Assembly (NCBI GenBank): GCA_947168585.1
Contig: CAMVMK010000017.1
Location: 1 to 39,427 of the forward strand
From: an uncultured Fretibacterium sp.
GTDB taxonomy: Bacteria; Synergistota; Synergistia; Synergistales; Aminobacteriaceae
DNA: 39,427 nucleotides
Direction: 5' to 3'
The translations under genes were made by a program, and so were the position numbers. Numbering within the stretch: the stretch's first letter is position 1; every line of letters starts with the position of its first letter. The notes beneath the pieces were generated by a model, which was not told where the DNA came from, searched no databases, and saw nothing but the letters and a program-made list of their open reading frames with translations. This document shows positions 7,922 through 39,427 of this stretch, piece after piece.

Positions 7922-8500
7922 TTAAAAATTTAAGCTGAAAATTTTTTGTTTTAATTCTTCTAAAGTTCCATCGTTATGAATTACAAAATCGCTCATTGAA
8001 ATTTTTTTCTCGCGGGGCATTAAAAAACTTTCCCGGCGTTTTAATTCGTCTATGCTCCAGCCGCGCTGTTCAAAACATCTTAGTGAACGGGTCTCAAAGT
8101 TTGCCGCAACAAAAATAACGCAAGCAGGAAGTAAATTAGCTTGGGCTTCAAATAATAAAGGAATTTCGATAACTAAATTTTTACTTTTAGCTCCTAATTT
8201 CTCACTTCTAACTCCTAACTCTTTCATGACTAATGGGTGAAGAATTGAATTGCAAAATTTATATTCCTCTATATTAAAGAAAATCCGCCGGGAAATTTCA
8301 GTTTTTATGATTTCTCCCGACGAATCTAAAATCTCACTGCCCCAGCGTGAGACAAAAATTTTTTTTACTTCATCGTCATGCCAAAGTTCAGCCGCGATTT
8401 TATCAGCGTCAAGCAACGGACAAGATAATTTTTCAGCTAATAATTTCGCGGCAGTTGACTTACCAGCCCCTATATCGCCCGTAACCACCGCTGTTGTCAT
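7922..8500 (-). CDS. coaE: Dephospho-CoA kinase
   Basis: 192 residues. It phosphorylates dephospho-CoA in the last step of coenzyme A synthesis. The P-loop GDIGAGKST (8-16) is clear, with the DADKIAAELW segment and the IPLLFE motif (near 108-113) of the family. The start overlaps the end of the helicase gene by 41 bases, so this is the last gene of the housekeeping run. Between HPLVMK and IPLLFE the protein reads ELGVRSEKLGAKSK, which is an in-frame translation of a heptamer DNA repeat found elsewhere in the window. The local length is still normal for the family, so the repeat occupies a variable stretch and the enzyme is probably active. Confidence 0.93.
   Translation of the reverse strand: MTTAVVTGDIGAGKSTAAKLLAEKLSCPLLDADKIAAELWHDDEVKKIFVSRWGSEILDSSGEIIKTEISRRIFFNIEEYKFCNSILHPLVMKELGVRSEKLGAKSKNLVIEIPLLFEAQANLLPACVIFVAANFETRSLRCFEQRGWSIDELKRRESFLMPREKKISMSDFVIHNDGTLEELKQKIFSLNF
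8185..8225 (-). repeat. Heptamer repeat inside coaE
   Basis: On the coding (minus) strand the units TTAGGAG, TTAGAAG, TGAGAAA, TTAGGAG, CTAAAAG follow one another with a 7-bp period. They match the intergenic family at 1034, 12337, 13081 and other sites. Here they are read as codons (peptide LGVRSEKLGAKS) without breaking the frame. Confidence 0.8.
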
Positions 8501-13080: not shown

Positions 13081-13134
13081 ATTAGGAATGAGAAATTTTT
13101 TAACTCCTCACTCCTCATTCCTAACTCCTCACTA
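13081..13134. repeat. Heptamer repeat forming an 11-bp hairpin just upstream of pyrH
   Basis: Plus strand: the arm TTAGGAATGAG (13082-13092), then units AACTCCT, CACTCCT, CATTCCT, AACTCCT, CACT with a 7-bp period. TTAGGAATGAG pairs perfectly with CTCATTCCTAA at 13113-13123. In the minus-strand message the loop displays a GAGGAG sequence, and the stem ends about 10 bases before the pyrH ATG. It fills almost the entire tsf-pyrH spacer. Confidence 0.8.
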
Positions 13135-15030: not shown

Positions 15031-15057
15031 GTGAGGGGTTAGGGGTTAGGGGTGAGA
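15031..15057. repeat. Heptamer repeat, GTGAGGG/GTTAGGG type
   Basis: A perfect 7-bp period: GTGAGGG, GTTAGGG, GTTAGGG, GTGAG. Together with the opposite-sense run at 15118-15143 it brackets about 60 bp, so the two may form one larger inverted element. Confidence 0.75.
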
Positions 15058-15117
15058 TTTTTTCACGCGCTTAGTTTTCTAATAAAAATAAAATTTTAGG
15101 CACGCGCAGGTTTTTTT

Positions 15118-15143
15118 AACTTCCTACTTCCTAACTCCTAACT
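15118..15143. repeat. Heptamer repeat, opposite sense
   Basis: Units CTTCCTA, CTTCCTA, ACTCCTA, ACTT with a 7-bp period. It lies just beyond the terminator of the Ig-like gene and faces the run at 15031-15057. Confidence 0.7.
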
Positions 15144-21225: not shown

Positions 21226-21774
21226 TTATTTCAGTAAAGGAATAACGATAGTAGCGACAGTTACAACTAAGGTCAAGACAGCAAGCCACATATTACGGGC
21301 TTTATCTGAAGCATGGATAGATTCCTTAATGCCGTCAATTTTCTGTGTCAACTTTGCCTCAACGCCGTCAATTTTTTCAGTAAGTTTTGTCTCAACGCCG
21401 TCAATTTTCGCTGTAAGTTCGGATTTAACGCCGTCAATTTTTTCAGTAAGTTTTGCCTCAACGCCGTCAATTTTCGCTGTAAGTTCGGATTTAACGCCGT
21501 CAATTTTTTTATCGAGAGTTTTGATTTCGCCTTTGAGTTCGGCTCTGGTCTCTTTAAGTTCAGATTCAATCCTGTCGATTCTTTTTTCGAGGCCTGAAAT
21601 TTTTTTGTCGACACGGTTTTCTAAACTTTCAAATTTTCGTTCCATTGAAGTTTGAAAGCTGTTAAATCTCATTCCCGTGAGTTCTTTTTCTGAAGTTGAA
21701 CGTTCGTCAATTCTTTGAAGCTGAATATCGAATAAATCTTTTGGAACATACTGAATAATTCTTTCTTCTGCCAT
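21226..21774 (-). CDS. 182-residue coiled-coil protein with KIDGV repeats and C-terminal membrane segment
   Basis: After the shared N-terminus (about 5-25) comes a coiled coil with six tandem 11-residue units of the form KIDGVxxxLTx (about 92-155), then NMWLAVLTLV and one membrane helix to the end (about 160-182). At DNA level a 66-bp double unit is repeated almost exactly (from 21365 and 21431, one visible difference). Eleven-residue periodicity is typical of long right-handed coiled coils. The design, KID repeats plus a C-terminal anchor, is much like Bdr proteins of Borrelia, though common descent is not shown. It has a probable extended -10 promoter at 21809-21817 and AAAGGAG as ribosome-binding site. 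Confidence 0.82.
   Translation of the reverse strand: MAEERIIQYVPKDLFDIQLQRIDERSTSEKELTGMRFNSFQTSMERKFESLENRVDKKISGLEKRIDRIESELKETRAELKGEIKTLDKKIDGVKSELTAKIDGVEAKLTEKIDGVKSELTAKIDGVETKLTEKIDGVEAKLTQKIDGIKESIHASDKARNMWLAVLTLVVTVATIVIPLLK
21330..21510. repeat. 33/66-bp tandem repeats inside the 182-residue coiled-coil gene
   Basis: The sequence starting CCGTCAATTTT recurs every 33 bp. Pairs form a 66-bp unit at 21365-21430 and 21431-21496, with a third partial copy from 21497. It is in frame (33 bp = 11 residues), so copy-number change would alter coiled-coil length without breaking the gene. Confidence 0.85.
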
Positions 21775-24679: not shown

Positions 24680-24982
24680 ATGGCATTAGCACTTCAAAAA
24701 GATTTTTCATTTTTATCTGAAATAATAAATTGGCTTAAAGGACTTTCATTTACTGTCGAATACGATAAAGAGGCTGACGGTTCGATCACCGGTGAAGTAA
24801 TTGAATTTCATGCTCTTGAAAACGCTCCTACTTTGAAAGAATGTGAAGCTAAATTAATTTCGAGCATGAGAGAATGGGCGATAGGACGCTTAAACGAAGT
24901 TCCTTATCTTTTGAAAATTCTTTTAAGCTCTGACGAAGAAATAAAATCATGCCTAATAAAAAATCAGGAGCAAGGCTTTTAA
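24680..24982 (+). CDS. HicB-like small protein, no toxin partner
   Basis: 100 residues. The central part, FTVEYDKEADGSITGEVIEFHALENAPTLKECE split over about 24-56, follows the HicB pattern: a beta hairpin with xVxxDxDGSxxAxVxE, then TLxEAxxxxxxxxxxW. A C-terminal helical part ends KNQEQGF. HicB proteins are antitoxins with a partial RNase H fold, normally encoded beside a small HicA toxin, but no HicA is found on either side. It may be an orphan antitoxin, a regulator of the divergent gudD gene, or a HicB-fold protein of other use. Ribosome-binding site TTAGGAGA. A heptamer repeat begins right at its stop codon. Confidence 0.6.
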   Translation: MALALQKDFSFLSEIINWLKGLSFTVEYDKEADGSITGEVIEFHALENAPTLKECEAKLISSMREWAIGRLNEVPYLLKILLSSDEEIKSCLIKNQEQGF

Positions 24983-25005
24983 TTCCTCACTCCTAATTCC
25001 TAACT
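24983..25005. repeat. Heptamer repeat directly after the HicB-like gene
   Basis: Units TTCCTCA, CTCCTAA, TTCCTAA, CTT with a 7-bp period, beginning at the stop codon of the preceding gene. Single sense, no paired arm seen. Confidence 0.7.
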
Positions 25006-36496: not shown

Positions 36497-36553
36497 TAAA
36501 AAATATAAAATCAGATAAAATTTTGTTAAATTTATTTTAAGGAGAAATTTTTA

Positions 36554-36790
36554 ATGCCGTCGGCTCAAAAATCAAAAATTTTTGTTAATAATTTGAATAT
36601 ACCTCAAGAATTGAATTTTGACGCTGAGAAAGTTTATATCAATAAAATCGGAGATGTTTTAATCATGACTCCTGTAAACCGTCTTGCTGAAACTTTGGAA
36701 CGCGGCGCAGCTATTATCGCCGAGTTTGCAGATGATTTCATGAAAGACGCTATGCCGGAGGAAATTCCTGCGGTACGTGAAAAATTATAA
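36554..36790 (+). CDS. VapB-type antitoxin (AbrB-like)
   Basis: 78 residues. Residues about 8-40 (KIFVNNLNIPQELNF, EKVYINKIGDVLIMTP) match the swapped-hairpin AbrB-like DNA-binding domain of VapB antitoxins, and the C-terminal helix (LAETLERGAAIIAEFADDFM) is the toxin-binding part. Strong ribosome-binding site AAGGAGA. The gene itself looks intact, but its toxin gene just downstream is broken. Confidence 0.8.
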   Translation: MPSAQKSKIFVNNLNIPQELNFDAEKVYINKIGDVLIMTPVNRLAETLERGAAIIAEFADDFMKDAMPEEIPAVREKL

Positions 36791-36793
36791 AAA

Positions 36794-37081
36794 ATGTATA
36801 TGCTCGATACTAACGCCGTAATAATGGCAATAAGAAAAGTTCACGGCCTGAAGTAACGAGAGTCGGCGTATATACGTTTTTAGCAGGTGTTCCTGTGATT
36901 GATTTTGACGCAGAAGCAGCTAAACATTTTGGTCGGCGATCTTGAATTAAAACGCATGAGAATAAGCGACAGAGATACAATGATAGCGGCTCATGCCCGT
37001 TCATTGGGATATATTCTCGTTACAAACAATACACGCGAATTTTCGAGAGTTGAAGGCTTAAAAATTGAAGATTGGAAATAA
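36794..37081 (+). pseudogene. VapC toxin remnant
   Basis: Starts 4 bases after vapB with MYMLDTNAVIMAIRK, the VapC N-terminus with its first catalytic Asp, then hits a stop after 20 codons. Other frames carry later pieces: VPVIDFDAEAAKHF (around 36890), then GDLELKRMRISDRDTMIAA and YILVTNNTREFSRV, up to a stop at 37081. About a quarter of the normal length is missing and at least two frame changes are needed. The toxin is dead. Confidence 0.75.
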
Positions 37082-37132
37082 AAATCAAAATAAAAAAATC
37101 GTTAGAAAGGACGTTGACAAAATAAAAATTAT

Positions 37133-38098
37133 GTGCATAATATTCACAGCACAGCACAGCACAGCACAGCACAGCACAGCACAGCACAGCACAGCACCTA
37201 TAGTTGTCTTTTTTTTTCTTTCAAAAATAAATTTTGTGTATTTATCACAGCTTTAACTTTCCTTTTTAGTTCGATTTCTTCAGCATATGCGGACTATACT
37301 ATCACAATTCCTGACTCTTTGACCGTAAATAATTCAGGTTATAACGCTTCCGGAAATATTACTGTAACCGGTTTAGACAGCAAACAAAAACTAACTTTAA
37401 CAGCTTCTTCTGCTAATAATTGGAAACTCAAATCCGATGAAAATTCAATCGGTTACAATCTTGTAAATCAGAATACACAAGAAAATTATAAAAGTTCTGC
37501 AACCGCTGCAACTTGGAAATTCGATAACGATACTACATCATTAAGCGCAGGAATTATCGTTGAAGATTACAGCACCAAACCTGCAGGAACTTATAATGAT
37601 ACAGTAACTTTCACAGCAAATATAAAAGATGTTGCAGAAACACCCGCCATTGCGCAGGCAGATTGCACATTCAGTCCGAAAAACGGAACGAGCACACTCT
37701 CTCACGCCAATATTACAACTTCAATGGAATATTCCACCGACAGCGGCACGACTTGGACTGACGTTACCACAGCTGGCTCCATAGCTTCGCTCGCTGCAGG
37801 TGCGGTACAGATTCGTGTCAAGGAGACCGACGACAAGCTGGCCAGCGAAGCTGTTTCAATTACCGTACCGCAAGTGCTGAAGATAAACGAACTCGTAGGC
37901 CCGTATACTGGTGATAAACTCACCTGCGAATACTACGCCGGAGAAACTTGGCAGGCTTTGGTTGACAGGTATGATTTAATTAAAGTTTACAGCGGCCGCG
38001 CGGCTTTCGGCAGCGATGGATTTATCTATGACGAAAGCGGCTCCGCTGTTAGTGTCACAGCTCTCATAGATAACACAAAGACATATGAAGTTCAATAA
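37133..38098 (+). CDS. Secreted pilin-like surface protein with a (CACAG)10 tract after the start; probably phase-variable
   Basis: 321 residues as read from the GTG at 37133. Residues about 5-27 are STAQH repeats encoded by the pentanucleotide tract. A hydrophobic signal core follows (about 30-55, FCVFITALTFLFSSISSAYA). The mature protein has a beta-rich domain (about 56-170, ending in GTYNDTVTFTANI), a second domain with MEYSTDSGTTWTDVT (about 200-250), and a C-terminal domain to TYEVQ. Such modules are seen in surface/fimbria-like proteins of Firmicutes and relatives. An ATG at 37131 is in a different frame from the GTG. No in-frame start exists after the tract, so expression depends on repeat number. 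First of a three-gene unit. Confidence 0.75.
   Translation: MHNIHSTAQHSTAQHSTAQHSTYSCLFFSFKNKFCVFITALTFLFSSISSAYADYTITIPDSLTVNNSGYNASGNITVTGLDSKQKLTLTASSANNWKLKSDENSIGYNLVNQNTQENYKSSATAATWKFDNDTTSLSAGIIVEDYSTKPAGTYNDTVTFTANIKDVAETPAIAQADCTFSPKNGTSTLSHANITTSMEYSTDSGTTWTDVTTAGSIASLAAGAVQIRVKETDDKLASEAVSITVPQVLKINELVGPYTGDKLTCEYYAGETWQALVDRYDLIKVYSGRAAFGSDGFIYDESGSAVSVTALIDNTKTYEVQ
37145..37197. repeat. Pentanucleotide simple-sequence repeat (CACAG)10
   Basis: Ten perfect copies of CACAG plus three bases. Five is not a multiple of three, so each change in copy number shifts the frame. It sits between the start codons and the signal-peptide core, the same position as the CTCTT repeats of Neisseria opa genes. 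Confidence 0.93.
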
Positions 38099-38119
38099 GC
38101 AGCGAAAGTTCGTGAGCCT

Positions 38120-38509
38120 ATGAACCGAAAACCGAATATCATTTTCATAATAATTTTTGCGTTTCTGTTCGCGTGTAAATCATATGCGGGCGGAATTGCA
38201 ATTCCCGGTTATGAAAAATTGATTTTTAATGCGGACGAAAAAAATCAGAGTGTGAAATTTTATAACCCTGCCTCTAATTCGTGTTATTTAAGATTAAGTT
38301 TAATTCTTGACGGCGGCAAAGAATTATGGCGTTCTGATTTTGTAGAACCGGGCGAAGAAATTAAAGAAATTTTGCTTTCAGAATCGCTTAAAGCCGGGAC
38401 TTACGGCGCACTTTTGAAATATGAATGTTTTTCGCTGAATGACAAAACGCAGTTAAACGGCCTAAATATAAAATTAAAAATTATAAGCGAGGTATCAAAG
38501 AATTTATGA
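38120..38509 (+). CDS. Small secreted protein, second in the surface-protein unit
   Basis: 129 residues with a signal peptide (about 1-23, ending CKSYAGG). The mature part reads IAIPGYEKLIF, NQSVKFYNPASNSCYLRLSLIL, then VEPGEEIKEI and LKAGTYGALLKYECFS, a small beta-sandwich pattern with two Cys. I have seen similar small proteins beside fimbria-like genes in Gram-positive-type genomes but cannot name the family. It starts 21 bases after the phase-variable gene and its stop overlaps the next start (ATGA). The Shine-Dalgarno is weak, so it may depend on translation of the gene before it. Confidence 0.7.
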   Translation: MNRKPNIIFIIIFAFLFACKSYAGGIAIPGYEKLIFNADEKNQSVKFYNPASNSCYLRLSLILDGGKELWRSDFVEPGEEIKEILLSESLKAGTYGALLKYECFSLNDKTQLNGLNIKLKIISEVSKNL

Positions 38510-39427
38510 AAAAAAATATTATGTTATTACTTGCGGCTTTGTTATTATCATTCTTTTCAATAACAGCTGAAGCAGATAATACCGCAGGAACAATGATAAT
38601 TACTTTGACTATAACAGCAGCACCAGCCCAGCCTCCAGCTGATAATACAGGCGGCGGAAGCTCAGGCGGCTCTTCAGGACAGAGTACTACGGGTTATGAA
38701 GCCGTTGACACTAACACCGGCGGCAGCACCGGCACTACTACTACGGACGTAACCGTAAAGGGCGATCTTACGGGCAAAGATATTACCGAAGTAATTCAGG
38801 AAATCGAAACAAAAACCGAAGTAAAAACTTTGGATTTATCGAACGTTACGGGCGTTACGGAGGTAAAACTTCCCGAAAATACAAAAATAGAAACTCTGAC
38901 TATCACCGAAAATACTTCGATAAAAAAAGTTGAAGTTTCTCAAAATGATTCGTTGAAATCCATAAATCTTTCAGGAAGTAAAATTGAAGAGGTCAACGCG
39001 AGCGAGTGCAGCGGCTTAGAGAAAGTCGAAGTTGAAAATAATTCTTCACTCGTAGTTCTTAACGTCAGCTATTCGTCCGTTACGACATTGAACGCTAAAA
39101 ATTGCGCTAATCTCGAAAATCTCAACTGCGAACGCTGCGAGATAACCGAGTTAAATCTCGAAGGCTGTGAAAAACTTTCAGCTTTAGACTGCTCCTATAA
39201 CAGTTTAACGAGGCTTGACGTTTCAGCGTTTTCAAATTTAGCAAGTCTTGCCTCGCAAGGTCAGCGTGTTACGAACGTTAAGCGCGTCAGAAGTTTTAAT
39301 TTGATTGACTTTTTATTCAGAAGGATAGCGGATTTCTTCCTCGCGGATTACAGTGAAGAAGAGTTAAAAGAACTTGAGAAAGTTCAAAATCTCCAAGCCT
39401 TTGACGAGTACGGCAATGAAATTCAAG
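38506..39427 (+). CDS. Secreted leucine-rich-repeat protein, cut by the window end
   Basis: 307 codons are visible before the window ends. A signal peptide (about 1-24) leads into a short hydrophobic ITLTITAAPAQPPA segment, then a Gly/Ser/Thr-rich linker (about 48-88), then leucine-rich-type repeats of about 21-23 residues (LKSINLSGSKIEEVNASEC, LVVLNVSYSSVTTLNAKNC, LENLNCERCEITELNLEGC, LSALDCSYNSLTRLDVSAF). Cysteines recur at fixed positions. The ATG overlaps the stop of the previous gene, so the two are coupled. It is a likely surface protein of the same unit. Confidence 0.8.
   Translation, partial: MKKNIMLLLAALLLSFFSITAEADNTAGTMIITLTITAAPAQPPADNTGGGSSGGSSGQSTTGYEAVDTNTGGSTGTTTTDVTVKGDLTGKDITEVIQEIETKTEVKTLDLSNVTGVTEVKLPENTKIETLTITENTSIKKVEVSQNDSLKSINLSGSKIEEVNASECSGLEKVEVENNSSLVVLNVSYSSVTTLNAKNCANLENLNCERCEITELNLEGCEKLSALDCSYNSLTRLDVSAFSNLASLASQGQRVTNVKRVRSFNLIDFLFRRIADFFLADYSEEELKELEKVQNLQAFDEYGNEIQ

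Follow-up and report, generated by a model that had tools for sequence, protein, structure and literature searches.

A pentamer repeat before a secreted-protein gene in an uncultured Synergistaceae genus: a probable phase-variation switch within a recurrent cassette

Pentamer-driven switching is familiar from the opa genes of Neisseria, where CTCTT repeats near the beginning of the gene for a secreted or surface protein encode the core of its signal peptide and set expression through the reading frame. Repeat-driven phase variation is also already known in a leader-peptide version, that of pil1 and pil3 in Streptococcus gallolyticus, where the action of repeats within a leader ORF has been shown experimentally (Danne et al. 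2014, PMC3894217). The pil1 leader is a short ORF that contains GCAGA pentamers and is provided with an ATG and a ribosome-binding site of its own; out-of-frame gain or loss of copies shifts the site at which ribosomes stop, and the output is realized via a premature terminator (PMC3894217). For Synergistota, a literature search of open-licence papers found no report of repeat-driven phase variation.

The stretch of DNA analysed here (39,427 nucleotides from an uncultured Fretibacterium sp., referred to as the window) carries on its + strand a (CACAG)10.6 tract at positions 37145–37197. It consists of 53 nt of perfect copies and is the longest period-5 match, as compared to a maximum of 15 nt in 60 shuffles of the window. 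Two potential start codons precede it, ATG at 37131–37133 and GTG at 37133–37135 (both +), which overlap and open different frames. As assembled, the frame of ATG yields 41 aa and stops at 37254–37256, and the frame of GTG, which is that of a secreted protein, extends for 321 aa through the signal peptide to position 38098. With one copy fewer or two more the ATG would come into frame, with an unchanged number or a change by three GTG stays in frame, and with one more or two fewer neither is in frame. A previous model reading of the letters alone (the sequence-only reading) had described ten perfect 5-bp repeats between the start and the signal-peptide core, two starts in different frames, the full protein attainable at ten copies from GTG only, and an off state for the copy-number class served by neither start; in all these points the frame analysis agrees with it. 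The repeats encode HSTAQ, N-terminal of the signal-peptide core, and from the tract to position 37319, that is past the signal peptide, the frame of the secreted protein contains no ATG, GTG or TTG. The arrangement expected of a contingency gene, with a repeat unit not divisible by 3 between the start codon and the gene body, is thus present. A run of nine T residues (37209–37217, +) between the tract and the signal peptide may be a second slippage site acting on the same frame; the run is shorter in the homologue from genome G007 considered below.

The window ends with a set of three genes, all on the + strand. Gene 1 (37133–38098), the 321-aa ORF counted from GTG and fused to the tract, has a weak match to SCPU (Pfam, E 0.0055, below the cut-off) and ends 21 nt before gene 2 (38120–38509, 129 aa), which has a signal-peptide-like start and a weak FimC-chaperone match, far below the cut-off (NCBIfam, E 0.0012). 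Gene 3 (38506–39427) encodes an LRR protein (LRR_4, E 1.2e-09) and runs off the contig. Since genes 2 and 3 overlap by ATGA (38506–38509), all three genes may plausibly be coupled as one unit, judging by the layout. For the window protein no Opa-type match was found in Pfam or NCBIfam, PDB sequence searches gave nothing useful, and a single-sequence structure prediction for gene 1 was of low quality (mean pLDDT 38) and was left out of the analysis. Just upstream of the cassette described below, at 36797–37081, an apparent remnant of a PIN-type toxin gene, broken by stops, can be recognized by eye. Elsewhere in the window there are short 7-nt tandem arrays (8191–8221, 13103–13133, 15034–15053, 15117–15143 and 24980–25003) and, at 21324–21507, an in-gene 33/66-nt repeat within a coiled-coil-like ORF.

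Both start codons are overlapped by a near-consensus promoter. Its −35-like box TTGACA (37114–37119, +) and −10-like box CATAAT (37136–37141, +) are separated by 16 nt, and with 11 of 12 matches it was the best promoter in the scanned stretch. The tract begins 3 nt after CATAAT, which would put the start of transcription inside the tract, and the nested promoter predicts a transcript beginning after the start codon. The repeat lies neither between the two boxes nor upstream of them, where promoter-spacing phase variation would require it. An SD-like block, AGAAAGGA (37104–37111, +; GAAAGGA in the cassette), sits 19 nt before ATG 37131, which is a long spacing for SD; across the genus modules it is found directly 5′ of TTGACA, and its distance to TTGACA, unlike that to the start codon, is kept. 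An Rfam search of 36500–39427 gave 0 matches at E up to 5, and a search of 15 loci found nothing beyond RNase P and one Clostridiales-1 RNA.

On comparison with other genomes, the window tract belongs to one of many copies of a conserved cassette preceding surface genes in its Synergistaceae genus. The order of elements, to which the window conforms, is SD-like block, TTGACA, start codon, −10 box and a repeat of 5, 7 or 8 nt. A search pattern that itself contains no repeat (AAAGG-N1..4-TTGACA-N17..19-ANANT) had matches in 39 of 43 genus genomes, with up to 23 sites per genome, and the reversed pattern, used as a control, gave 0–4 matches per genome. We inspected 79 sites, comprising 76 of the 82 distinct ones listed for five genomes and three of the genome studied here, G000; the remaining 6 of the 82 had already been collected via their repeats. 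A tandem repeat was registered directly after the −10 box in 64 of the 79, with units of 7 nt in 43, 5 nt in 19 and 8 nt in two cases, and with lengths of 2–15 nt allowed none of these units was a multiple of 3 (no 3, 6 or 9). Of the 15 sites without a repeat several are unlikely to be cassettes, and in one the sequence breaks off 7 nt past the box. Looser repeat thresholds brought in two 4-nt and two 6-nt units; another listing had five such matches, none of them with the cassette block. For 13 of the 79 sites the contig ends no more than 60 nt away, which is to be expected if assemblies break at tracts. Over all modules collected about 40 different unit sequences were found. The module counts given below leave out four antisense artefacts, and the count of open start-to-tract frames one more; since there are several sites per genome, the counts are not independent.

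In G000 (2.35 Mb, 110 contigs) CACAG tracts are present at two further loci, and other sites bear in the same position units of CGCCGTT, CACGAGC and GGAGTCA running to contig ends, and also CGCTCAA. At least four perfect CACAG copies were found in 15 of 61 genomes, this one included, which are 15 of 37 genus members and 0 of 24 genomes from elsewhere in the order. Tracts of GACAC were found in 13 of 43 genus genomes, and at the sites inspected they again follow the upstream block of the cassette. The 20 downstream proteins scanned are mostly glycan enzymes, five having no match at E 1e-5. Their families are pyruvyl transferases, GT2 and GT4 glycosyltransferases, DUF4422, acyltransferases, a UDP-sugar dehydrogenase, LicD, a sugar-transfer ATP-grasp protein, an initiating sugar transferase and one nitroreductase-family protein.

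Reading frames were then scored through the tract. With ATG or TTG between TTGACA and the tract taken by rule as the start, one could be assigned in 116 of 122 genus modules, and stops between this start and the tract occur in its own frame in 4 of 116 modules (112 open) versus 75 and 78 in the other two frames; part of this excess is made by the box sequences, although a randomly placed start would meet those stops equally often. For 102 modules the downstream sequence is at least 300 nt long; they comprise 51 fused ones, in which the gene ORF leaves the tract, and 51 separate ones. Of the latter 45 could be scored, and in 36 of them the stop of the long frame falls no more than 25 nt from the start of the gene, mostly as ATGA, versus a mean of 16.8 and a maximum of 28 in 2000 shuffles (6 of the 51 had no scorable SD-start and were left out; the 36 of 45 includes L031 minus, which was dropped from the frame count). 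The other two frames stop there after a median of 12 and 26 nt. In L013, L022, L024, L036 and L038 one leader frame was seen by eye to end with Pro-Pro-stop (KPP or RPP before the stop), a possible ribosome-stalling end. By the start rule, which does not prove use of the chosen start, ON is predicted for 29 of 91 modules, namely 14 of the 49 fused and 15 of the 42 separate ones, with one third expected for random phase; L337, counted among the 14, has a stop in its start frame ahead of the tract, and its removal leaves 28 of 91. The supposition that decayed modules are locked ON was rejected, as 2 of 11 are in frame by this rule, which is not preferential.

Gene 1 homologues are present in 11 of 43 genus genomes, this one included. 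The closest of them, in G007 (58% identity over residues 17–168), follows about 3 (3.0) copies of the repeat versus 10.6 in the window, with a downstream flank 89% identical, and is in frame with an ATG. Other homologues stand behind cassettes with CGGCTGT, TTACGGGC or TACGGGC units, and in 5 of 13 gene 1 homologue stretches no cassette was found within the 330 nt inspected. Near-identical flanks with differing copy numbers were also registered for 5.6 versus 7.6 copies (95% identity, same genome), 7.7 versus 12.7 (93%, same genome) and 7.2 versus 5.2 (92%), and one pair, L019 and L036, with 94% flank identity, has the same number. The count in relatives, proposed as a check in the sequence-only reading, favors a copy-number switch: at the species level copy number varies among related genomes as is characteristic of contingency genes, and it also differs between near-identical paralogues.

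We consider it likely that the window locus is a phase-variation switch and one instance of a frame-gating cassette spread over the genus. Slipped-strand gain or loss of CACAG units would alter the frame in which ribosomes, having started just upstream of the tract, most likely at ATG 37131, leave it; one frame in three would enter the signal peptide and give the secreted protein, and the others would give short repeat peptides. The cassette may gate genes in two ways, by direct fusion, as in the window, or by means of a short leader in which the long frame terminates at the start codon that follows. Copy-number frame switching appears well supported by what sequence comparison provides, namely the tract, the cassette, the unit lengths, the open start-to-tract frame, the stop-start overlap and the differences in copy number, and we infer that slippage goes on within the population and changes expression. 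Points against this reading are that decayed modules show no preference for being in frame, that the pair L019 and L036 has equal copy numbers, that the start frame of L337 is interrupted, that the SD-like block is far from ATG 37131 and that the nested promoter would begin its transcript past the start codon. Of the frame switch originally proposed for this locus, the copy-number switch before a secreted protein is retained, in agreement with the 5-, 7- and 8-nt repeats of the genus, the open frame, the ON share of about one third and the copy differences. Its two-start, three-state design is not.

This design, with ATG as a strong start, GTG as a weak one and the third copy-number class off, is the least improbable of the alternatives, yet we regard it as unlikely. 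Its arithmetic is correct and the frame of GTG is open to the full protein, but 21 of 123 modules have a GTG immediately preceding the −10 box, at offsets +13 and +14, irrespective of frame, and in a relative with the same ATGTG (L037) a stop interrupts the GTG frame ahead of the tract. The recurrent GTG may be a part of the promoter, and weak GTG starts in the window are possible. ATG is found between TTGACA and the tract in 95 of 123 modules, with offsets after TTGACA peaking at +2 and +8; the one at 37131 belongs to the class with offset +11, common to 7 of 123. By the start rule, this ATG is the predicted start of the switching frame, probably used in preference to GTG, so that the assembled window copy would be out of frame with the secreted protein.

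Constancy of the promoter in the vicinity of the repeat admits one more explanation, according to which transcription starts inside the tract and its length alters promoter escape or properties of the 5′-UTR, not the frame. Of 41 tracts found by their repeat alone, 39 are preceded by a TTGACA-like box 16–18 nt before a TATAAT-like one, as compared to a mean of 1.2 and a maximum of 5 on resampling, and in 37 the −10 box ends 0–4 nt before the tract. Nevertheless, such promoter-level tuning is improbable, since units of 5, 7 and 8 nt, open frames from start to tract and long-frame stops at gene starts would be unexpected if the tract was untranslated; a pure 5′-UTR or promoter reading was dropped on these grounds. 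A TATAAT-like box 26–55 nt 5′ of TTGACA was found in 101 of 123 genus modules versus 46 of 123 in a wider control stretch, which suggests an upstream promoter, and transcription of the frame-gated genes would then begin upstream of the start codon; such a box was not evident in the window promoter scan. Even less probable is a neutral or decaying repeat, or an assembly artefact, with no switching at all: the sequence does come from a single metagenome-type assembly of 110 contigs and decayed modules do exist, but some 40 different units at one fixed position and a conserved reading frame argue against it.

A genome scan with TTGAC-N22..30-(CACAG) gave 105 stretches, of which 80 were listed; TTGAC was the search condition here, so its presence is not evidence. 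Among the matches listed there are in-gene tracts of DNA methyltransferases, as well as modules of Lachnospiraceae, Ruminococcus, Butyrivibrio and other bacteria with SD, TTGACA, ATG, −10 box, tract and a TAACTGCGCTCTTT-like motif, which often carry a strong terminator before a large secreted protein. In all, 71 loci were scored, some Synergistaceae loci being also included, and 38 of the 50 without a long fused ORF have a predicted terminator, which is reached by the long frame in 34 loci, by the middle frame in 15 and by the short one in 2. An attenuator of the S. gallolyticus pil1 type, where translation of the leader controls a terminator before the gene, fits many loci of this kind outside the genus, but for the window it is barely credible, as no + strand terminator is predicted between the tract (37198) and gene 2 (38120) and the ORF is fused. 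The short 3′ motif after the tract has its main phase in common in the genus (54 of 101) and in other loci (20 of 30), above the shuffled information content. In nine Lachnospiraceae-type loci (L050, L052, L072, L075, L079, L083, L087, L093 and L112) a strong terminator has at its base, by eye, the TAA, TAG or TGA with which the long leader frame ends. Two Streptococcus loci (L046 and L076) have an AGCAC tract, with SD and start, again by eye, likewise between TTGACT and TACAAT, and Treponema loci L045, L047, L048, L060 and L061 keep TTGACA, a −10-like box and the tract, SD and ATG being mostly missing.

Tentatively, one may think of a contingency cassette that is portable and common to unrelated gut bacteria, in which a ribosome-binding site and a start codon are nested in a sigma-70 promoter and followed by an interchangeable repeat of 5, 7 or 8 nt and a short constant 3′ motif, with fusion, stop-start coupling and attenuation as outputs; the nested promoter, melting and transcribing the tract from its first unit, may set the rate of slippage. 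If the frame-gating reading is right, this uncultured ruminant Synergistaceae genus has a large repertoire of independently switching surface genes, which spans pyruvyl, acyl and glycosyl transferases, LicD and secreted proteins under one sequence rule for all. Phase states could then be scored directly from metagenomic reads, repeat-driven switching would extend to the phylum Synergistota, and the reason for nesting a promoter at the repeat would become a testable matter.

The opa parallel drawn in the sequence-only reading holds for the switching logic. The window protein, however, has no Opa porin-like homology, its repeats encode HSTAQ ahead of the signal-peptide core and not the core itself, and the upstream cassette is shared and reused before unrelated genes; the nearest worked-out relative is the pil1 leader switch of S. 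gallolyticus. The likeness consists in pentamer repeats within an ORF that begins upstream of the tract, in the dependence of the ribosomes' stopping site on out-of-frame copy changes and in the control of surface structures. The intrinsic terminator that separates leader and gene in pil1 has no predicted counterpart in the window, where the ORF is fused, and this genus employs fusion or stop-start coupling whereas pil1 employs attenuation; pil1 and pil3 represent one unit at two loci, whereas in the genus the units are many and a genome has up to about 20 cassette sites. Phase-variable DNA methyltransferase genes (Streptococcus, Bergeriella, Lonepinella and Acinetobacter loci) likewise have a CACAG-type tract at the ORF start, and 5 of 6 scanned contain an N6_N4_Mtase domain, the sixth having a type I specificity domain, but these are single in-gene tracts behind an ordinary start, and they concern DNA methylation, not surface genes. 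Gut and rumen loci of Lachnospiraceae, Ruminococcus and Treponema share with the window the order of TTGACA, −10 box and CACAG tract, as well as a similar post-tract motif in the same phase, with large secreted proteins downstream; they differ in that a separate leader usually ends at or past a predicted terminator. Relative to known repeat-driven phase variation, what looks new in this genus is a multi-unit cassette with stop-start coupling.
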